A stretch of 39,535 nucleotides of DNA, from assembly GCA_944388105.1 (NCBI GenBank), contig CALXHN010000013.1:1-39535 (forward strand), given 5' to 3'. Every line of letters begins with the position of its first letter. The stretch's first letter is position 1. This stretch comes from an uncultured Gemmiger sp. (GTDB lineage Bacteria; Bacillota; Clostridia; Oscillospirales; Ruminococcaceae). A program made the position numbers and the translations under genes. Shown here piece after piece: positions 1,169 to 15,383 of this stretch. The notes beneath the pieces were generated by a model. That model was not told the DNA's origin, made no database searches, and saw only the letters and a program-made list of their open reading frames with translations.

Positions 1169-3246
1169 TGAGCCTGCCCATCCAAACGCCGCGGCCGGAG
1201 ATCCTGGCCCCGGCCGGAAACGCACAGATGCTTAGCGCCGCTGTGTTCAGCGGCGCTGATGCTGTTTATCTGGGCCTGACGGGATACAACGCACGGCGCA
1301 GCGCCGGCAATTTCACGCCGGAGGAGCTTTGTGACGCCGTGCGCTTTTGTCATGCCCGTGGGGTGCGGGTCCATGTGACCCTGAACACCCTGGTGTTCGG
1401 ACCGGAACTGCCCGGTCTGGCCGATGCGGTGCGCGCCGTGGCCGAAGCCGGCGCCGACGCGGTGATCGCCGACGATCTGGCGGTGGCGGCCCTGGTGAAA
1501 CAGATGGCCCCCGAAGTCCATCTGCACGCCTCCACCCAGATGACCATCCACACCCCCGAGGGAGCCCGACAGATGGCCGAAATGGGCTACGACCGGGTCA
1601 TTCTGGCCCGGGAGCTCTCTTTGGAGGAGATCCGGGCGGTGGTCAAGGCCAGTCCCATCGAGGTGGAGGTGTTCATCCACGGAGCCATGTGCATGGCGGT
1701 GAGCGGACAGTGCATGATGAGCGCCTTTCTGGGCGGACGCAGCGGCAACCGCGGCGCCTGCGCCGGCCCCTGCCGCCTGCCCTTTGACGCCACCCCCGGC
1801 CTGCGTCCCGGTCAGCCCGGGACGGCCTGCCATCTGAGCCTGAAGGACATGGATCTGGTGCCTTATATGGCACAGCTCATGGACGCCGGCGTGGCCAGCG
1901 TAAAAATTGAAGGCCGGCTGCGTACCCCCGAGTATGCCGCCGCGGCCGTGACCGCCTGCCGGTGCGCCCGGGAAGGCAAGGCCTACGATGAAGCCCTGCT
2001 GCGGGACATTTTCTCCCGTTCCGGCTTCACCGATGGGTATCTGGTGGGCCGCAACGGCAAGAACATGTTCGGCGTGCGCACCCAGGCAGATGCCGACGCC
2101 ACCCGGGCCGCCACCCCCAAAGCCCGGGAATTGTTCCGGCGGGAACTGTCCCGGATCCCGGTGACCTTCCGTGTGGAAGTATTGCCCGACGGCATCGCCC
2201 TCACTGCCGAGGACGGGGAAGGCCGCGCTGCCCGGGCTGTGAGCCGCACCGCGCCCCAGGCCGCCCAGAAGGACCAGAGCGATGCCATCACCCGGGCTTT
2301 GTCCAAGACCGGCGGCACTCCCTTCTGTGTGGGCGAAATCAAGCTGCCCGAAGAGGCGCACACCGCCTTTTTGCCCGGAAGCGAGTGGAACGAGCTGCGC
2401 CGGGAGGTCCTGGAGCGGCTGCTGGAATTCCGCAGCGCCCCCGCCCCCAAGTCTGTGCAGCCCTGTTCCCTGCCTGTCTGGGCACCCCGCCGCCCCGGTG
2501 TACCCACCCTGGCTGCCCGGTTTGAGCGGGCGGAGCAGATCCCCGCAGATCTGACCGACAGGCTGGCTTTTCTGGTGCTGCCGGTGAGTCAGGCCGCCCA
2601 GCTGCCTGAAGCTCTGCGTTCCCGCACCCTGCTGGAACTGTCCCGGGTGTGCTTCGGCGCTGCCGAGGAGGCGGTCAAGACCGCCCTGGCCGGCTGCGAG
2701 GGACAGGGATTCCGGGGCGTGGTCCTGAACAATCCCGCCCACCTGCGGTACGCCACTTCCCTGCCCCGGTACGGCGGCATGGGCCTGAATGTGACCAACC
2801 CGGTGGCTGCCGGACGCTGGCGGGAGCTGGGGCTGCAGGGGATGCTGGTCCATCCCGAAACGCCCCTGCCCGCCATGCGGCTCCTGGACCCCGGCGTGCC
2901 CACCGCCGCCCTGTGCTACGGGCACATGCCCCTGATGCTGACCCGGGCCTGTCCCCTGCGCAACGTGCGGGACTGCAAGGGCTGTCCCCACAGCGGCAGC
3001 CTGCGGGACCGCAAGGGCCGGGATTTCCCGGTGCGGTGCTCGGCGCCGGGTATGGCCGGTATCCGCACCGTCTACAATCCGGTGCCCCTGTACATGGGCG
3101 ACCGGCTGGGCGAACTGCCCGCCGATTTTGCCCTGGCCGCCTTCACACTGGAAGCCCCCGACCGGGTGCACCAGATTTTGGAGATGCTGCTGGCGGGCCG
3201 GGGATTTGACAGCGAGTTCACCCGGGGATTATACTATACTGGTTAA
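1168..3246 (+). CDS. U32 family peptidase-like protein (RlhA/YhbU group)
   Basis: The product has 692 residues and opens with EILAPAGNAQMLSAAVFSGA, the start of the U32 'collagenase-like' family. The U32 signature is clear near residues 166-184 (EVFIHGAMCMAVSGQCMMS), followed by GNRGACAGPCRLPF, whose cysteines are typical. The C-terminal half carries another cysteine group (CPLRNVRDCKGCPHSG). Long U32 members of this type include RlhA, which hydroxylates 23S rRNA C2501 in E. coli, and the related TrhP, which acts on tRNA. RNA hydroxylation is therefore more likely than proteolysis, but the substrate cannot be read from the sequence. The gene overlaps zapA by one base. The promoter for dut lies inside its last codons. 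Confidence 0.85.
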   Translation: MSLPIQTPRPEILAPAGNAQMLSAAVFSGADAVYLGLTGYNARRSAGNFTPEELCDAVRFCHARGVRVHVTLNTLVFGPELPGLADAVRAVAEAGADAVIADDLAVAALVKQMAPEVHLHASTQMTIHTPEGARQMAEMGYDRVILARELSLEEIRAVVKASPIEVEVFIHGAMCMAVSGQCMMSAFLGGRSGNRGACAGPCRLPFDATPGLRPGQPGTACHLSLKDMDLVPYMAQLMDAGVASVKIEGRLRTPEYAAAAVTACRCAREGKAYDEALLRDIFSRSGFTDGYLVGRNGKNMFGVRTQADADATRAATPKARELFRRELSRIPVTFRVEVLPDGIALTAEDGEGRAARAVSRTAPQAAQKDQSDAITRALSKTGGTPFCVGEIKLPEEAHTAFLPGSEWNELRREVLERLLEFRSAPAPKSVQPCSLPVWAPRRPGVPTLAARFERAEQIPADLTDRLAFLVLPVSQAAQLPEALRSRTLLELSRVCFGAAEEAVKTALAGCEGQGFRGVVLNNPAHLRYATSLPRYGGMGLNVTNPVAAGRWRELGLQGMLVHPETPLPAMRLLDPGVPTAALCYGHMPLMLTRACPLRNVRDCKGCPHSGSLRDRKGRDFPVRCSAPGMAGIRTVYNPVPLYMGDRLGELPADFALAAFTLEAPDRVHQILEMLLAGRGFDSEFTRGLYYTG
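3206..3235 (+). promoter_or_regulatory. Promoter for dut inside the end of the U32 gene
   Basis: TTGACA (3206-3211), an 18-bp spacer and TATACT (3230-3235) form a near-consensus promoter within the last codons of the U32 gene. Transcription would start near 3242, about 30 nt before dut. Confidence 0.65.
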
Positions 3247-3270
3247 GCCTTTTTGAAAAAAGGAGACAAT

Positions 3271-3720
3271 ATGGAACGCAAGACCGTTAAATTCAAGCGG
3301 CTGGATCCGGCCGCCAAGGCCCCCGCCTACGCCACCGCCGGTGCGGCGGCCGCCGACCTGTGCGCTCTGCTGGACGCACCCCTGACCGTGGAACCCATGC
3401 AGCGGGTACTGGTCCCCACCGGTCTGGCCATTGAACTGCCCGGTCCCGAATGTGTGGCCCTGGTGTATGCCCGCAGCGGGCTTTCCATCAAGCACGGGCT
3501 GTGCATGGCAAACGGTGTGGGCGTGGTGGACAGCGACTACCGCGGGGAACTGAAGGTGCCCATGGTGAACCTGGGCACCGAAGCCTACACCATTGCACCC
3601 GGAGAACGGGTGGCCCAGCTGTGCATTGCCCCGGTATGGCAGGCGGACTTTGTGGCCGCCGACACCCTGGGCGACACCGCCCGCGGAGAAGGCGGCTTCG
3701 GCTCCACCGGCCGGGGCTGA
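3271..3720 (+). CDS. dut: Deoxyuridine 5'-triphosphate nucleotidohydrolase (dUTPase)
   Basis: dUTPase hydrolyses dUTP to dUMP and pyrophosphate, keeping uracil out of DNA and feeding dTMP synthesis. The 149-residue protein has all five motifs of the trimeric family in order: AAAADLCA (motif 1), ARSGLSIKHGL (2), NGVGVVDSDYRGELKVP (3, with the catalytic Asp), GERVAQLCIAP (4) and the C-terminal glycine-rich GEGGFGSTG (5). The ATG at 3271 follows AAAAAAGGAG at a normal distance; an earlier in-frame TTG at 3253 would overlap that site. The stretch CCTTTTT at 3248-3254 can pair with AAAAAGG at 3257-3263, partly covering the ribosome-binding site. A weak terminator overlaps the stop codon. Confidence 0.95.
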   Translation: MERKTVKFKRLDPAAKAPAYATAGAAAADLCALLDAPLTVEPMQRVLVPTGLAIELPGPECVALVYARSGLSIKHGLCMANGVGVVDSDYRGELKVPMVNLGTEAYTIAPGERVAQLCIAPVWQADFVAADTLGDTARGEGGFGSTGRG

Positions 3721-11688: not shown

Positions 11689-12387
11689 TTACTTGCGCAG
11701 GCGCTTGTCACAGCGGACGGCCAGCCAGGTGCCGATGGACTGGAAGATCTGCACCATGACCACCAGCAGCACGGTGGCCACCACCATGATAAGGTACTTG
11801 TAACGGTAGTAGCCGTAGTTGATGGCGATCTGGCCCAGACCACCGCCGCCGATGATGCCGGCCATGGCCGAGTAACCCAGGATGGTGGTCATGGCGATGG
11901 TGGCGTTGGCGATCAGACTGGGCAGGCTTTCGGGGATCATCACCTTGGTGATGATCTGCATGGGAGTGGCACCCATACTCTGGGCCGCTTCGATCACGCC
12001 GCCGTCCACCTCCCGCAGGCTGGTTTCCACCAGGCGGGAGACGAAGGGGAAGGACGCAATGAACAGCGGGATGATGGAAGCCGGGGTGCCGATGGAAGTG
12101 CCCAGCACAAACATGGACAAGGGCAGCACCGCGATCATCAGGATCAAAAAGGGTACACTGCGCAGCAGGTTGATGACCGCATTGAGCAGGGTCATGAGCC
12201 AACCGGGCAGCGGCAGGACGCCGTCCTTCTCCCCTGCCACCAGCAGCACGCCCAGGGGCAGGCCCACCACCATGGCCAGCAAGGTGGAGATGGCAGTGGC
12301 GTAAAAGCTTTCCCAGGTGGCGAAAGGCAGGTTGGGCAGATTGTCCATCAGGACCTGCCATTCATCCGAAGCAAACAGAAATTCCAT
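11689..12387 (-). CDS. metI: D/L-methionine ABC transporter permease MetI
   Basis: MetI forms the membrane channel of the methionine uptake transporter MetNIQ. The 232-residue protein has about five hydrophobic segments (for example ISTLLAMVVGLPLGVLLVAG, LILMIAVLPLSMFVLG, YLIMVVATVLLVVMVQIF). It also carries the EAA coupling loop, VIEAAQSMGATPMQIITKVMIPESLPSL, and the MetI-typical YSAMAGIIGGGGLGQIAINYGYYRY. Its ATG overlaps the metN stop by one base (TAATG), so the two are translationally coupled. A terminator follows at 11627-11663. Confidence 0.95.
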   Translation of the reverse strand: MEFLFASDEWQVLMDNLPNLPFATWESFYATAISTLLAMVVGLPLGVLLVAGEKDGVLPLPGWLMTLLNAVINLLRSVPFLILMIAVLPLSMFVLGTSIGTPASIIPLFIASFPFVSRLVETSLREVDGGVIEAAQSMGATPMQIITKVMIPESLPSLIANATIAMTTILGYSAMAGIIGGGGLGQIAINYGYYRYKYLIMVVATVLLVVMVQIFQSIGTWLAVRCDKRLRK

Positions 12388-13388
12388 TATGCCTGTACCT
12401 CCTCATACGTCAGACCGGGATAGGTGCGGATATAGGCGATGGCCTTTTCGGCCTCATCAGCGTTATCGGGCAGAGCCAGGAGCATGCTGCCCAGGGTCTG
12501 GCCGTTGACGATACGGGTGTCCGCCGCCACGATGGAGACCAGGGCCCCGCACTCGATGGCCAGACTGGCCACCAGAGGCTTGTCGGTGGTCTGGGTACCG
12601 TTGAAGGCCACCCGGACCAGACGGTGACCGGCGGGCAGTTCGCCCTGGGGCGCGCCGGCCGGGAAGACCAGACGGCGGGCCGCCGGGGTCTTGGGGTTGG
12701 AGAAGATCTCCGCCACGGAGCCCTGCTCCACCACCTTGCCGGCATCCAGGATGGCCACATTCTGGCAGACCTGTTCCACCACGCTCATCTGATGGGTGAT
12801 GATGACCACCGTGATGCCCAGCTCCTTGTTGATGTTCTGGATCAGCTGCAGGATGGCATGGGTGGTGTTGGGGTCCAGGGCACTGGTGGCTTCGTCGCAC
12901 AGCAGGACCTTGGGGTCGGTGGCCAGGGCACGGGCGATGGCCACCCGCTGTTTCTGGCCGCCGGAAAGCTGGGCCGGGTAGCTTTCGGCCTTATCGGGCA
13001 GGCCCACCAGTTCCAGCAGTTCCCGGGCACGGGCTTCGGCCTTCTCCTTGGGAACACCGGCCAGCTCCATGGGGAAGCAGACGTTTTTCAGGCAGTTGCG
13101 CTGCATAAGCAGGTTGAACTGCTGGAAGATCATGGCGATCTCCCGCCGCGCTTCCCGCAGGCCGCGGGCATCCAGGGTCTCCATCCGGCGTCCGTTGACG
13201 ATGACGCTGCCCTCGTCCGGCTTTTCCAGCATATTGATGCAGCGCACCAGGGTGGACTTGCCTGCACCGGACATACCGATGATGCCGAAGATATCCCCGT
13301 CCTGGATGGTCAGGGAGATATCCTGAAGTGCGACCAGCGTGCCCGCCTTGGTGGCAAACCGTTTGGTCAGATGTTGCAGTTCGATCAT
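12387..13388 (-). CDS. metN: Methionine ABC transporter ATP-binding protein MetN
   Basis: MetN powers methionine import. The 333-residue product has Walker A GMSGAGKST (residues 38-46), a Q-loop MIFQQFNLL, the signature LSGGQKQRVAIARAL, Walker B VLLCDEATSALD and the switch His in VIITHQMSVVEQV. The last 90 or so residues resemble the NIL/ACT domain that binds methionine and inhibits transport in trans (VRVAFNGTQTTDKPLVASLA... ). The start at 13388 is preferred over longer frames because homology begins with MIELQHLTKRF and GGGAGG lies about 10 nt upstream. A terminator and a second hairpin separate it from metQ, so its level probably depends on read-through. Confidence 0.95.
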   Translation of the reverse strand: MIELQHLTKRFATKAGTLVALQDISLTIQDGDIFGIIGMSGAGKSTLVRCINMLEKPDEGSVIVNGRRMETLDARGLREARREIAMIFQQFNLLMQRNCLKNVCFPMELAGVPKEKAEARARELLELVGLPDKAESYPAQLSGGQKQRVAIARALATDPKVLLCDEATSALDPNTTHAILQLIQNINKELGITVVIITHQMSVVEQVCQNVAILDAGKVVEQGSVAEIFSNPKTPAARRLVFPAGAPQGELPAGHRLVRVAFNGTQTTDKPLVASLAIECGALVSIVAADTRIVNGQTLGSMLLALPDNADEAEKAIAYIRTYPGLTYEEVQA

Positions 13389-13515: not shown

Positions 13516-14451
13516 TCAGAAAATGGCAACCACAGCGCCGTGGTAGGTATCGGTGATGTAGTCCTTGACCTTCTGGCTCTTGAGGGCGGCGATGAGGGCC
13601 TTGGTGGCGGGTGTCTCCTCGTTGCCTTCCTTCACCACCAGCACGTTGGCGTAGGTCTGGGCAGCTTCGCTGTCGGCATCCTCGGCGGCAATGGCGTCAT
13701 CGGCAGAATAGAAGCCGGCTTCGGTGGCGTAGTTGCCGTTGATGACGGCCATATCCAGAGAGGCCAGCTGACGGGGCAGCTGGGCAGCCTCCATCTCCAC
13801 GATGTTCAGGTTCTTGGGGTTGTCCACGATATCGTTCTTGGTGGCGGTCAGACCGGCGCCGTCCTTCAGGGTGATCAGGCCCTGGGCAGCCAGCAGCTGC
13901 AGGGCGCGGGCTTCGTTGGTGGTGTCGTTGGGCACGCCGATCTGGGCGCCGTCGGCCAGCTCATCCAGGGTCTTGGTCTTGCCCGGGTACAGGCCCAGGG
14001 GCTCGTAGTGGATGGCGGCCACACTCACCAGGTGGGTGCCGTTCTCCTCATTGAAGTTTTCCAGGTAGGGGCCGTGCTGGAAGTAGTTGGCATCCACTTC
14101 CCCGTTCTCGGTGGCCTTGTTGGGCTGGATGTAATCGGTGAATTCCACCACTTTCAGGTTGATGTCGGCTTCGGCCAGGATCTCACCCGCCACCTTCAGG
14201 ATCTCGGCGTGGGGAACCGGAGAGGCAGCCACCGTGATGGTGGTGCCCTTGAGGGCCTCATAGTCCACGGTGGAGTCGAATCCATCCCCGGTCAGGGAGG
14301 TGGTTTCGGAGGTGGCGGTGTCGGAGGTGGCGGCGGTGCTGTCGGAAGCAGGCGCAGAGGTGCTTTCGGAAGCGGGTGCGCTGCCGCAGGCAGCCAGGCT
14401 CAGGGTCAGGGCGGCGGCCAGCAGGCCGGACAGAAGTTTCTTCTTTTTCAT
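13516..14451 (-). CDS. metQ: Methionine-binding lipoprotein MetQ
   Basis: MetQ is the membrane-anchored receptor that delivers methionine to MetNI. The 311-residue protein starts with a lipoprotein signal peptide (MKKKKLLSGLLAAALTLSLAAC) with the lipidated cysteine at 22. A Ser/Thr/Ala linker to about residue 58 comes next, then the NlpA/MetQ domain: ITVAASPVPHAEILKVAG, VVEFTDYIQPN, VDANYFQHGPYLENFN, HYEPLGLYPGKTKTLDEL, IGVPNDTTNEARALQLL. AAAGGAG lies 8 nt before the ATG. It is the first structural gene of metQ-metN-metI. Upstream is a leader with a Met/Cys-rich reading frame and a strong terminator, so expression is probably controlled by attenuation. Confidence 0.95.
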   Translation of the reverse strand: MKKKKLLSGLLAAALTLSLAACGSAPASESTSAPASDSTAATSDTATSETTSLTGDGFDSTVDYEALKGTTITVAASPVPHAEILKVAGEILAEADINLKVVEFTDYIQPNKATENGEVDANYFQHGPYLENFNEENGTHLVSVAAIHYEPLGLYPGKTKTLDELADGAQIGVPNDTTNEARALQLLAAQGLITLKDGAGLTATKNDIVDNPKNLNIVEMEAAQLPRQLASLDMAVINGNYATEAGFYSADDAIAAEDADSEAAQTYANVLVVKEGNEETPATKALIAALKSQKVKDYITDTYHGAVVAIF

Positions 14452-14510
14452 GATGTGTTCTCCTTTATAATTCTATGGATTTGCACAAAGTGCGGGGACG
14501 GGGCGTTTTT

Positions 14511-14564
14511 TCAGCGGCGGCACATTCGCACACCGGGCTGACGGCACTTGGGGCCGGTCTTCAT
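14511..14564 (-). CDS. Possible second small leader ORF before metQ
   Basis: A 17-codon frame (MKTGPKCRQPGVRMCRR) starts 7 nt after AAGGAGGAG, one of the best ribosome-binding sites in the window. It lies after the leader terminator and 59 bp before metQ. It contains two Cys and one internal Met but no run of them. It could be a second leader peptide, a coupling ORF, or chance; the strong ribosome-binding site is the main support. Confidence 0.4.
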   Translation of the reverse strand: MKTGPKCRQPGVRMCRR

Positions 14565-14604
14565 AAGAGCTCCTCCTTTTTCATACAGGCAGGGACAGAC
14601 AAAC

Positions 14605-14640
14605 AAAAAAGCGGCAGGGCGCTTTCGGCGCCCTGCCGCT
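14605..14640 (-). terminator. Attenuator terminator in the metQ leader
   Basis: AGCGGCAGGGCGC (14640-14628) pairs perfectly with GCGCCCTGCCGCT (14622-14610) across a CGAAA loop, then TTTTTG. It lies between the leader peptide gene and metQ on the same strand, so it must be bypassed for metQ to be expressed. Confidence 0.9.
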
Positions 14641-14714
14641 GCTGTTTCCTGCCTCAAGCCCCGAAAAACGGGCAAGGGGAAACATGCGCAGGTTGCCGAA
14701 GCCCACTGCACATG
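14632..14714 (-). promoter_or_regulatory. Alternative pause and antiterminator stems of the metQ attenuator
   Basis: Arm A CATGTGCAG (14714-14706) pairs with arm B CTGCGCATG (14691-14683), nine pairs with one G-U, over a loop containing TTCG. Arm B with its flanks can pair with region C instead: CCTGC (14692-14688) with GCAGG (14636-14632), and TGTTTCC (14684-14678) with GGAAACA (14649-14643). GCAGG is part of the 5' arm of the terminator, so B:C excludes the terminator. Arm A overlaps the Met/Cys codons. A small hairpin (14673-14658) fits in the B:C loop. Pairings were found by eye. Confidence 0.65.
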
Positions 14715-14752
14715 CACATCATCATACCATCACGGCGTTCGTTACAAGTCAT
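14654..14752 (-). CDS. Met/Cys-rich leader peptide of the metQ-metN-metI operon
   Basis: A 32-codon frame begins MTCNERRDGMMMCMCSG and ends PFFGA before TGA. Codons 10-15 are ATG ATG ATG TGC ATG TGC (14725-14708): four Met and two Cys in six codons, two scarce amino acids in bacterial proteins. It starts about 35 nt after the predicted transcription start, with AGGAAAGGGG 8 nt before the ATG, a Shine-Dalgarno form also seen at other genes here. Its stop lies 13 nt before the terminator stem. The layout equals that of trpL or hisL: ribosome stalling at the Met/Cys codons would free arm B to form the antiterminator. I infer a regulatory peptide with no other function. Confidence 0.7.
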   Translation of the reverse strand: MTCNERRDGMMMCMCSGLRQPAHVSPCPFFGA

Positions 14753-14793
14753 GACAGCATCCCCTTTCCTGCAATTTCGGTTGGAATGCTGAC

Positions 14794-14822
14794 AGTATAC
14801 CCCCTTTGTCTGCCTGTGTCAA
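14794..14822 (-). promoter_or_regulatory. Promoter of the metQ leader
   Basis: TTGACA (14822-14817), a 17-bp spacer and TATACT (14799-14794) form a near-consensus promoter on the minus strand. The predicted start is near 14787. CAGCAT (near 14790) and ATGCTG (near 14758) can also pair around the leader ribosome-binding site. Confidence 0.85.
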
Positions 14823-14883
14823 GCCTTTCGCCGCAAAAAAGAAGCGGGAAGCAAAGTTTTCCTATATTTTTTCTATGTTTTGC

Positions 14884-14912
14884 TTGCCTGAAGGCCGTAA
14901 AGTTGGTATGAT
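14884..14912 (+). promoter_or_regulatory. Promoter of the Rrf2 regulator gene
   Basis: TTGCCT (14884-14889), a 17-bp spacer and TATGAT (14907-14912) precede the regulator gene. About 60 bp separate it from the divergent metQ leader promoter. Confidence 0.65.
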
Positions 14913-14945
14913 AAGGGTGCTATCCTTTTGGAAGGGAGAATCCCC

Positions 14946-15383
14946 ATGAAATTTTCGACCAAAGACCGCTATGCCCTGCGCCTGATGGTGGAACTGGCCA
15001 ACCGCGGGCCGGAGGAAACCCTTTCCCTGAAAAGTGTGAGTGACAGCCAGGGCATCAGCCAGAAATATCTGGAACAGATCGTTACGCCCCTGTCGCGTGC
15101 CGGTCTGGTCAGCAGCAGCCGGGGCAGCCAGGGCGGGTACCGTCTGACCCGTCCGGCATCCGGCATCACGGCCGGGGATATCCTGCGCGCCATCGAGGGC
15201 GACCTGGTGCCCATCCCCTGTCTGGCCAGTCAGGCCGAAGTCTGTCCGCGCCGGTCCCAGTGCCATACCATCGGGTTTTGGGATGGGCTGCGTCAGGTCA
15301 TCGACCAGTATGTGGACGGAATCACCCTGGAGCAGCTGTGCTCCATGAAGGCAGAAGATCTGCCCCTGCCCGATCTGGAATAA
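14946..15383 (+). CDS. Rrf2-family transcriptional regulator with IscR-like cysteines
   Basis: Rrf2 proteins are winged-helix regulators that sense Fe-S clusters (IscR), nitric oxide (NsrR) or cysteine supply (CymR). The 145-residue protein has MKFSTKDRYALRLMVELA and a helix-turn-helix (LKSVSDSQGISQKYLEQIV, wing SSSRGSQGGYRLTRP). It then has C92, C100, C106 and H107, against C92, C98, C104 and H107 in E. coli IscR, so cluster binding is plausible. The ATG at 14946 follows GGGAG; an in-frame upstream start at 14928 lacks a site. No iscS or iscU is adjacent. Because it is divergent from the methionine transporter, control of sulfur amino acid genes is worth considering. Confidence 0.88.
   Translation: MKFSTKDRYALRLMVELANRGPEETLSLKSVSDSQGISQKYLEQIVTPLSRAGLVSSSRGSQGGYRLTRPASGITAGDILRAIEGDLVPIPCLASQAEVCPRRSQCHTIGFWDGLRQVIDQYVDGITLEQLCSMKAEDLPLPDLE

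Follow-up and report, generated by a model that had tools for sequence, protein, structure and literature searches.

A probable ribosome-mediated attenuator reading charged methionine tRNA, and a second conserved uORF, upstream of metQ in an uncultured Gemmiger species

Described leader systems and the metQ locus

Ribosome-mediated attenuators of the trp, his and leu type consist of a leader ORF with runs of cognate codons, a protector hairpin, an antiterminator, an intrinsic terminator and a stop codon near the third segment, and the methionine genes of Firmicutes are usually regulated by the SAM-I riboswitch or the T-box. Leader peptides have also been described at methionine and synthetase genes. 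In Streptomyces lividans TK24 a Met/Cys-rich leader, metL (MSTTSDRTPATEATTTPGARCMCRRMCAF), is located upstream of metNIQ (PMC8079986), and hisS and hisZ of bacilli are preceded by histidine leader peptides which replace T-boxes (PMC2965389). A 2005 survey reports no conserved RNA element upstream of the methionine operons of Actinobacteria (PMC1262725). Attenuation by ribosomes is classical, and a Met/Cys leader before metNIQ is already in print for S. lividans. Among the matches listed from the open-licence literature, none describes a methionine leader peptide in Clostridia or a uORF similar to ORF2 below. The sequence-only reading knew of no Met/Cys leader peptide in this group; the one in print for S. 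lividans belongs to another phylum (PMC8079986).

The window, the whole stretch of 39,535 nucleotides analysed here, comes from a genome of 2.37 Mb and carries metQ, metN and metI behind a leader with two small ORFs (Table 1). The promoter, the leader ORF (ORF1) with its Met/Cys codons, the hairpin whose first arm overlaps these codons and the 13-bp terminator with its T-run, all noticed in the sequence-only reading, were each located; metQ does follow the terminator, although the second small ORF between them (ORF2) had been overlooked. The best promoter site matches the consensus at 10 or more of 12 positions in all 38 leaders collected. By a criterion fixed after ORF1 had been seen (ATG ORF, 18-45 amino acids, at least four Met within six codons), ORF1 is, post hoc, the sole such ORF in the window, and one of 60 dinucleotide shuffles contained one. 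The MetQ protein itself is poor in methionine (0.96% of residues), and its synthesis under starvation would be easier for that.

Table 1. Positions of leader elements and neighbouring genes in the window
Feature	Positions	Strand	Basis
Sigma-70-type promoter, TTGACA-17-TATACT	14794..14822	(-)	11 of 12 consensus matches
Shine-Dalgarno (SD) sequence of ORF1, AGGAAAGGGG	14761..14770	(-)	Sequence
ORF1, putative leader peptide MTCNERRDGMMMCMCSGLRQPAHVSPCPFFGA, 32 codons	14654..14752	(-)	Sequence; leaders of relatives
ORF1 codons 10-15, Met-Met-Met-Cys-Met-Cys, putative regulatory codons	14708..14725	(-)	Sequence; leaders of relatives
A:B hairpin, 14715-14706 with 14691-14682	14682..14715	(-)	Predicted fold with ribosome at stop; pair counts on alignment A1
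X (TTCGGC), pairs with GCCGAA (14629-14624) in terminator arm/loop	14695..14700	(-)	Predicted folds; pair counts
Antiterminator 5' strand: CCTGC (14692-14688) with 14636-14632, GC (14687-14686) with 14639-14638, TGTTTCC (14684-14678) with C	14678..14692	(-)	Predicted folds; pair counts
C (GGAAACA), starts 4 nt past the ORF1 stop	14643..14649	(-)	Sequence; predicted fold
Intrinsic terminator hairpin, 13 pairs and five further T	14610..14640	(-)	Pair counts on alignment A1
ORF2, second uORF MKTGPKCRQPGVRMCRR, strong SD, between terminator and metQ	14511..14564	(-)	Sequence; relatives
ORF2 codons 13-15, CGA-ATG-TGC	14528-14520	(-)	
metQ, MetQ-family substrate-binding lipoprotein	13516..14451	(-)	NF008285 1.8e-56, TIGR00363 6.6e-56, both below curated cut-off
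metN, methionine ABC transporter ATPase	12387..13388	(-)	Best model TIGR02314 8.4e-108, below curated cut-off
metI, methionine ABC transporter permease	11689..12387	(-)	Best model NF008049 9e-58, below curated cut-off
Rrf2-family regulator gene, divergent to metQ	14928-15383	(+)	TIGR00738 above cut-off; CymR model 1e-31, below its cut-off

The metQ leader shares with the trp, his and leu attenuators the ORF with cognate codons, the protector hairpin, the antiterminator, the terminator and the stop codon near the third segment. It is unlike them in that the cognate amino acid is methionine, the genes behind it encode an importer or an aminoacyl-tRNA synthetase, pairing of the antiterminator extends into the terminator loop, and a second uORF lies past the terminator; the invasion of the loop and the uORF in tandem are what sets the attenuator apart from the known kind. 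With metL it has in common a short Met/Cys-rich ORF upstream of a methionine importer, a likeness by description, whereas metL belongs to Actinobacteria and is reported with a leaderless transcript, no typical intrinsic terminator and, in the part of the paper available, no second uORF (PMC8079986). The hisS and hisZ leaders, compared likewise by description, are ordinary leader peptides which also accompany synthetase genes in Firmicutes, but use His codons (PMC2965389).

Nothing in the window matches an Rfam family at its gathering score, and the nine matches of a permissive scan of positions 14200-15100 all lie below it, so that the earlier statement that no SAM riboswitch or T-box is visible holds, and SAM-I (RF00162) and T-box (RF00230) were rejected for the leader. 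Both nevertheless occur in the genus, one SAM-I riboswitch in 32 of 35 genomes (upstream of metK at L223 and L224, the two loci read) and 3-12 T-box matches per genome. Among 19 metQ loci from outside the genus compared with Rfam, a T-box was found upstream of metQ only in L022 (2602-2845); an OLE RNA lies downstream of metQ in L028 (3827-4440).

Distribution, Met codons and conserved pairings

The gene metQ was searched in 61 relatives and is present in 32 of the 35 genomes of the genus; it is missing from G018, G029 and G024, the last of which retains a copy of the device at metG. ORF1, promoter and terminator occur together in 29 of 29 metQ upstream regions of the genus (L081-L109; the incomplete L110 was left out), ORF1 starting with TTG in L088. 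The metG loci of 30 of the 35 genomes were examined, 29 of them readable (L176 lacks a start), and they contain the ORF1 device in 7 cases, ORF2 in 7, neither in 15 and both in none; 14 of the 15 loci with neither lack an Rfam match at gathering score. The gene behind the metG-type leaders encodes MetRS (TIGR00398 above cut-off).

A covariance model (R1) built from 35 leaders gave at least 39 strong matches in the 35 genomes of the genus, of which 31 lie beside metQ, seven before metG and one at a contig end in G001, where metQ sits at the end of a different contig. Training sequences make up 35 of the 39, and the new matches are the metQ leaders of G027, G020 and G011 together with the one in G001. 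As R1 scored at most 105 of the 1454-3663 first-look candidates per genome, extra copies of the leader could be missed, and weak matches (1.5e-4 and weaker) were left out of these counts.

Looser cases were found outside the genus. One is MGRFGQNSNMMMCMCGMMMRSALFGVLRSRRV upstream of metF (TIGR00676 1.2e-84, just below cut-off) in another genus (L146), and the other is MTFRNTMMMRMLFSRACNMARCFGMRCCTPENNA upstream of metQ in an Oscillospiraceae record (L038); both were detected through their Met runs, so that their Met codons are no independent evidence, and their energetics are weaker than those of the genus leaders. L038 is the only one taken further of seven rows (L007, L036, L038, L041, L060, L065 and L080) from a scan for short Met/Cys ORFs with an SD upstream of metQ at 76 loci of other Clostridia (L005-L080), in which the scanned stretch was cut short at two loci (L024 and L071) and wrongly extended at two others (L025 and L047). 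The exact DNA for MMMCMC occurs in one of 391 sampled genomes of the class, the window's own, which makes the device rare. A relaxed pattern matched in 13 of 396 family genomes (eight of the genus, G403 with a metF leader, and four others), the matches L152, L154, L161 and L162 being discarded as lying inside long ORFs. A one-mismatch pattern matched in 8 of 148 genomes, where L145 and L149-L153 were discarded because inspection by eye placed them within other coding sequence or on the strand opposite it.

Four Met codons within six are found in 29 of 29 metQ leaders, a set chosen without regard to Met codons, so relatives keep the ORF and its Met codons alongside the terminator. The Met run is preceded by 6-10 codons, and it shares its frame with the SD-equipped start although the spacing varies by up to four codons. 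In L175 an insertion puts the sequence behind the Met codons into another frame, and in L171 the part behind them is shorter, yet both retain the terminator and much of the leader RNA, so that the downstream peptide looks dispensable. This points to a constraint on ORF1 that would consist of the Met codons and the RNA pairing, not of the remaining peptide.

The sequence-only reading had given cysteine an equal part, and it is this half of the proposed signal that fares less well. At least one Cys codon is present in the cluster of every metQ leader, both in 22 of 29; in the other seven, one is replaced by Arg or Tyr with the Met codons kept. The seven metG leaders all have 2-3 clustered Met codons, together with one Cys in five and none in two, and the cluster of L038 lacks Cys. 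As the TGC codons of ORF1 lie within or beside the A arm, part of their retention could be explained by pairing. That charged tRNA-Cys acts as a second signal in the proposed attenuator is thus unlikely, even though the Streptomyces metL peptide is likewise described as rich in Met and Cys (PMC8079986) and codon 15 of ORF2 is a Cys or stop codon in 33 of 33 cases; there is also no obvious reason for a MetRS gene to track cysteine. Methionine is the likelier signal on these codon counts, and a response to tRNA-Met charging would suit the two targets, a methionine importer and MetRS.

The pairings were compared on an alignment (A1) of 35 of the 38 leaders, without L146, L038 and L103, the last being very like L100. 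Cells are paired in 82.8% for the antiterminator core (40.9-55.6% for slid partners), in 89.4% for A:B (21.2-45.1%) and in 91.6% for the terminator (28.2-71.2%). The helix X:D with CCTG:CAGG is paired in 95.6%, one of its pairs appearing as U-A, G-C and C-G, though the X:D fit is just four of six in L099, L101, L102 and L171, and helices 3 and 4 include pairs that do not form in about half of the sequences. Eight terminator pairs show two-sided changes, and the covariation score beats 500 of 500 shuffles for antiterminator and terminator and all except three for A:B, counts in which changes common to related leaders are non-independent events. By two stricter measures the shuffles doing as well, out of 500, are 53 and 73 (antiterminator), 27 and 178 (A:B) and 62 and 454 (terminator). 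When strands were exchanged among nine clusters, the own strands of the whole antiterminator did better than in all except 12 of 2000 derangements, a result weaker for the terminator arm alone (all except 235 of 2000). For 11 of the 38 leaders, partners from other clusters give on average a stronger pairing than the own strand. The leader fold is also more stable than its shuffles (z -3.95, 0 of 200). Taken from these comparisons, a mutually exclusive antiterminator appears to have been kept by compensatory change.

Predicted folding, proposed mechanism and rival readings

Folding was predicted for 38 leaders as shortened transcripts ending at the terminator loop, with a ribosome masked on the last clustered Met codon or at the stop codon. 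With the ribosome stalled, the L081 leader forms a long hairpin of TTCGGC:GCCGAA, CCTGC:GCAGG (in the terminator arm) and TGTTTCC:GGAAACA; with the ribosome at the stop, X is held by A:B and the leader no longer occupies the terminator arm. Stalled transcripts hold 8 nt or more of terminator arm or loop in 37 of 38 leaders and at-stop transcripts in 17 of 38, the mean cost of freeing the arm being 16.7 and 6.1 kcal/mol, respectively. The stalled value is the higher in 37 of 38; the exception is L038, where the last Met codon gives a difference of 0.2 kcal/mol in the wrong direction, and the difference in L146 is just 1.4. In the L081 fold the start of ORF1, ATGCTGTCATG, also pairs with CGTGATGGTAT (14760-14750 with 14734-14724, minus strand) in a 5' hairpin which might occlude the start and could be the reason why one clade conserves its ERRDG codons.

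The B:C pairing of the sequence-only reading is present, but alone it barely overlaps the terminator, and the predicted competitor is the longer hairpin that includes TTCGGC and CCTGC. It competes with the terminator in shortened transcripts and mostly not in complete ones at equilibrium, where a ribosome on the first Met codon leaves the terminator formed in 35 of 37 leaders, and one on the last listed Met codon does so in 34. The attenuator model consequently needs kinetic control, with the decision made during transcription. Since 33 of the 38 shortened transcripts hold 8 nt or more of the terminator arm even without a ribosome, A:B must work by forming first.

The promoter, the ORFs with their SD sequences and Met codons, three mutually exclusive conserved pairings and the position before metQ and metG are seen in the sequence. 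From these, metQNI is very probably under a ribosome-mediated transcription attenuator that responds to how much charged methionine tRNA is available; that ORF1 is translated, that the ribosome stalls there, that antitermination follows and what the signal is, we infer. When Met-tRNA is scarce, the ribosome would stall at ORF1 codons 10-14 and prevent arm A from pairing with arm B, whereupon the unpaired X, CCTGC and B could pair with the 5' arm and loop of the terminator and with C as the RNA emerges, and the antiterminator so formed would let RNA polymerase read into metQ. With plentiful methionine, the ribosome would reach the ORF1 stop codon and mask C, A:B would re-form behind the ribosome once it had passed the Met codons and sequester X in its loop, and the terminator could form. 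In part of the genus metG would be under the same device. The methionine half of the attenuator read from this locus at the outset is thus well supported by conservation, and the equal role of cysteine and the details of B:C have been corrected.

Control at the promoter is the next reading to be weighed. The divergent Rrf2-family gene, whose product matches the family model above cut-off and the CymR model below it, may supply a further layer of control at the metQ promoter. That this regulator is the main controller there, with the terminator setting a basal level, would be compatible with attenuation, but it is quite improbable, as it leaves the conserved Met codons and the competing pairings unexplained and the sequence upstream of the metG copies of the device differs. 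A riboswitch for methionine or SAM on the A:B/antiterminator fold, with the ORF incidental, deserves very little credence: the RNA is structured with alternative folds and the genus does possess a SAM riboswitch, but the leader matches no Rfam family at gathering score, and the common frame of SD-start and Met run across the changes in spacing argues against an incidental ORF. Just as improbable is a nascent-chain arrest peptide in which ORF1 would sense free methionine or a drug instead of slow Met decoding, for the stretches ERRDGM, MMMCMCS and LRQP, conserved in many leaders, mostly coincide with RNA arms, ERRDG is absent from L098-L109, the downstream peptide is lost in L175 and L171, and the Met run itself varies (MMMCMC, MCM, MRM, MYM, MMRM and MVRM).

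A second uORF, ORF2, and the biology of methionine uptake

ORF2 was found in 33 cases, in 26 of 29 metQ leaders and in 7 of 29 metG upstream regions. Residues 10-14 read Pro-Gly-(Val/Ile/Phe)-Arg-Met in all 33, at the end of a 14-codon core without change in length, and the start is GTG in two. The Arg codon is CGA in 33 of 33 (codons counted by position, L167 included), although the search pattern required PGxR and not CGA and third positions vary at codons 9, 10, 11 and 12. Codon 15 is TGA in 18, TGC in 12 and TGT in three, so that each case reads CGA-AUG-UG(A/C/U). Among the Arg codons of the aligned metQ and metG coding pieces CGA accounts for 0 of 236, and for 22 of 595 in 20 long ORFs of the window, a set which includes some antisense ORFs.

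The DNA motif of ORF2 was detected in 7 of 396 family genomes, all of this genus (eight genomes of which were sampled), at nine places corresponding to metQ and metG sites. A search of 295 genomes at the order level returned just the own two sites and two unrelated coding matches (L112 and L113), the latter rejected. A similar coding stretch, QPGVRMC, was likewise rejected, as it lies inside a long gene, which we take to be rpoB, and uses CGC, CGT or CGG for Arg at the nine loci read. Part of one clade (L099, L101 and L104-L107) shows, by eye, a TTGAGGGA-like stretch in the loop of a small potential hairpin 3' of ORF2.

Arrest peptides of the TnaC and SecM type are encoded by short uORFs of fixed length with conserved residues at the stall site. 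ORF2 resembles them in being a short uORF of fixed length with conserved residues at a presumed stall site, and in its alignment a conserved C-terminal core with constant spacing from the start appears to be present, as in regulatory arrest peptides; to our knowledge it carries no recognised arrest motif. Slow decoding of CGA is reported from a his-leader assay (PMC4046918). A ribosome placed on codon 14 leaves access to the downstream SD unchanged (mean 0.47 when free and 0.49 with the ribosome, 33 cases), and a translational attenuator that sequesters the SD was rejected on this ground. At the metG loci with ORF2, the uORF follows directly behind another gene, with no terminator visible by eye. 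We think that ORF2 may be a pause-type regulatory uORF linked to methionine. That the transporter mRNA carries two methionine-sensing uORF devices in series, ORF1 acting on transcription and ORF2 on translation or stability through a methionine-dependent pause at codons 13-15, is possible, though doubtful; before metG the two replace one another.

If true, ORF2 would represent a new class of regulatory uORF, so far confined to this genus, that would sense through a rare codon together with one Met codon and a codon for a weak stop or for Cys. The leader as a whole would provide a concrete example of methionine control by a classical attenuator with a leader peptide, in gut Clostridia which retain SAM riboswitches and T-boxes elsewhere: metK probably reads SAM, whereas charged tRNA-Met appears to be what is read at metQ and, in part of the genus, at metG. 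The comparison also brings to light a second conserved uORF with an invariant rare codon, whose function can be tested directly.
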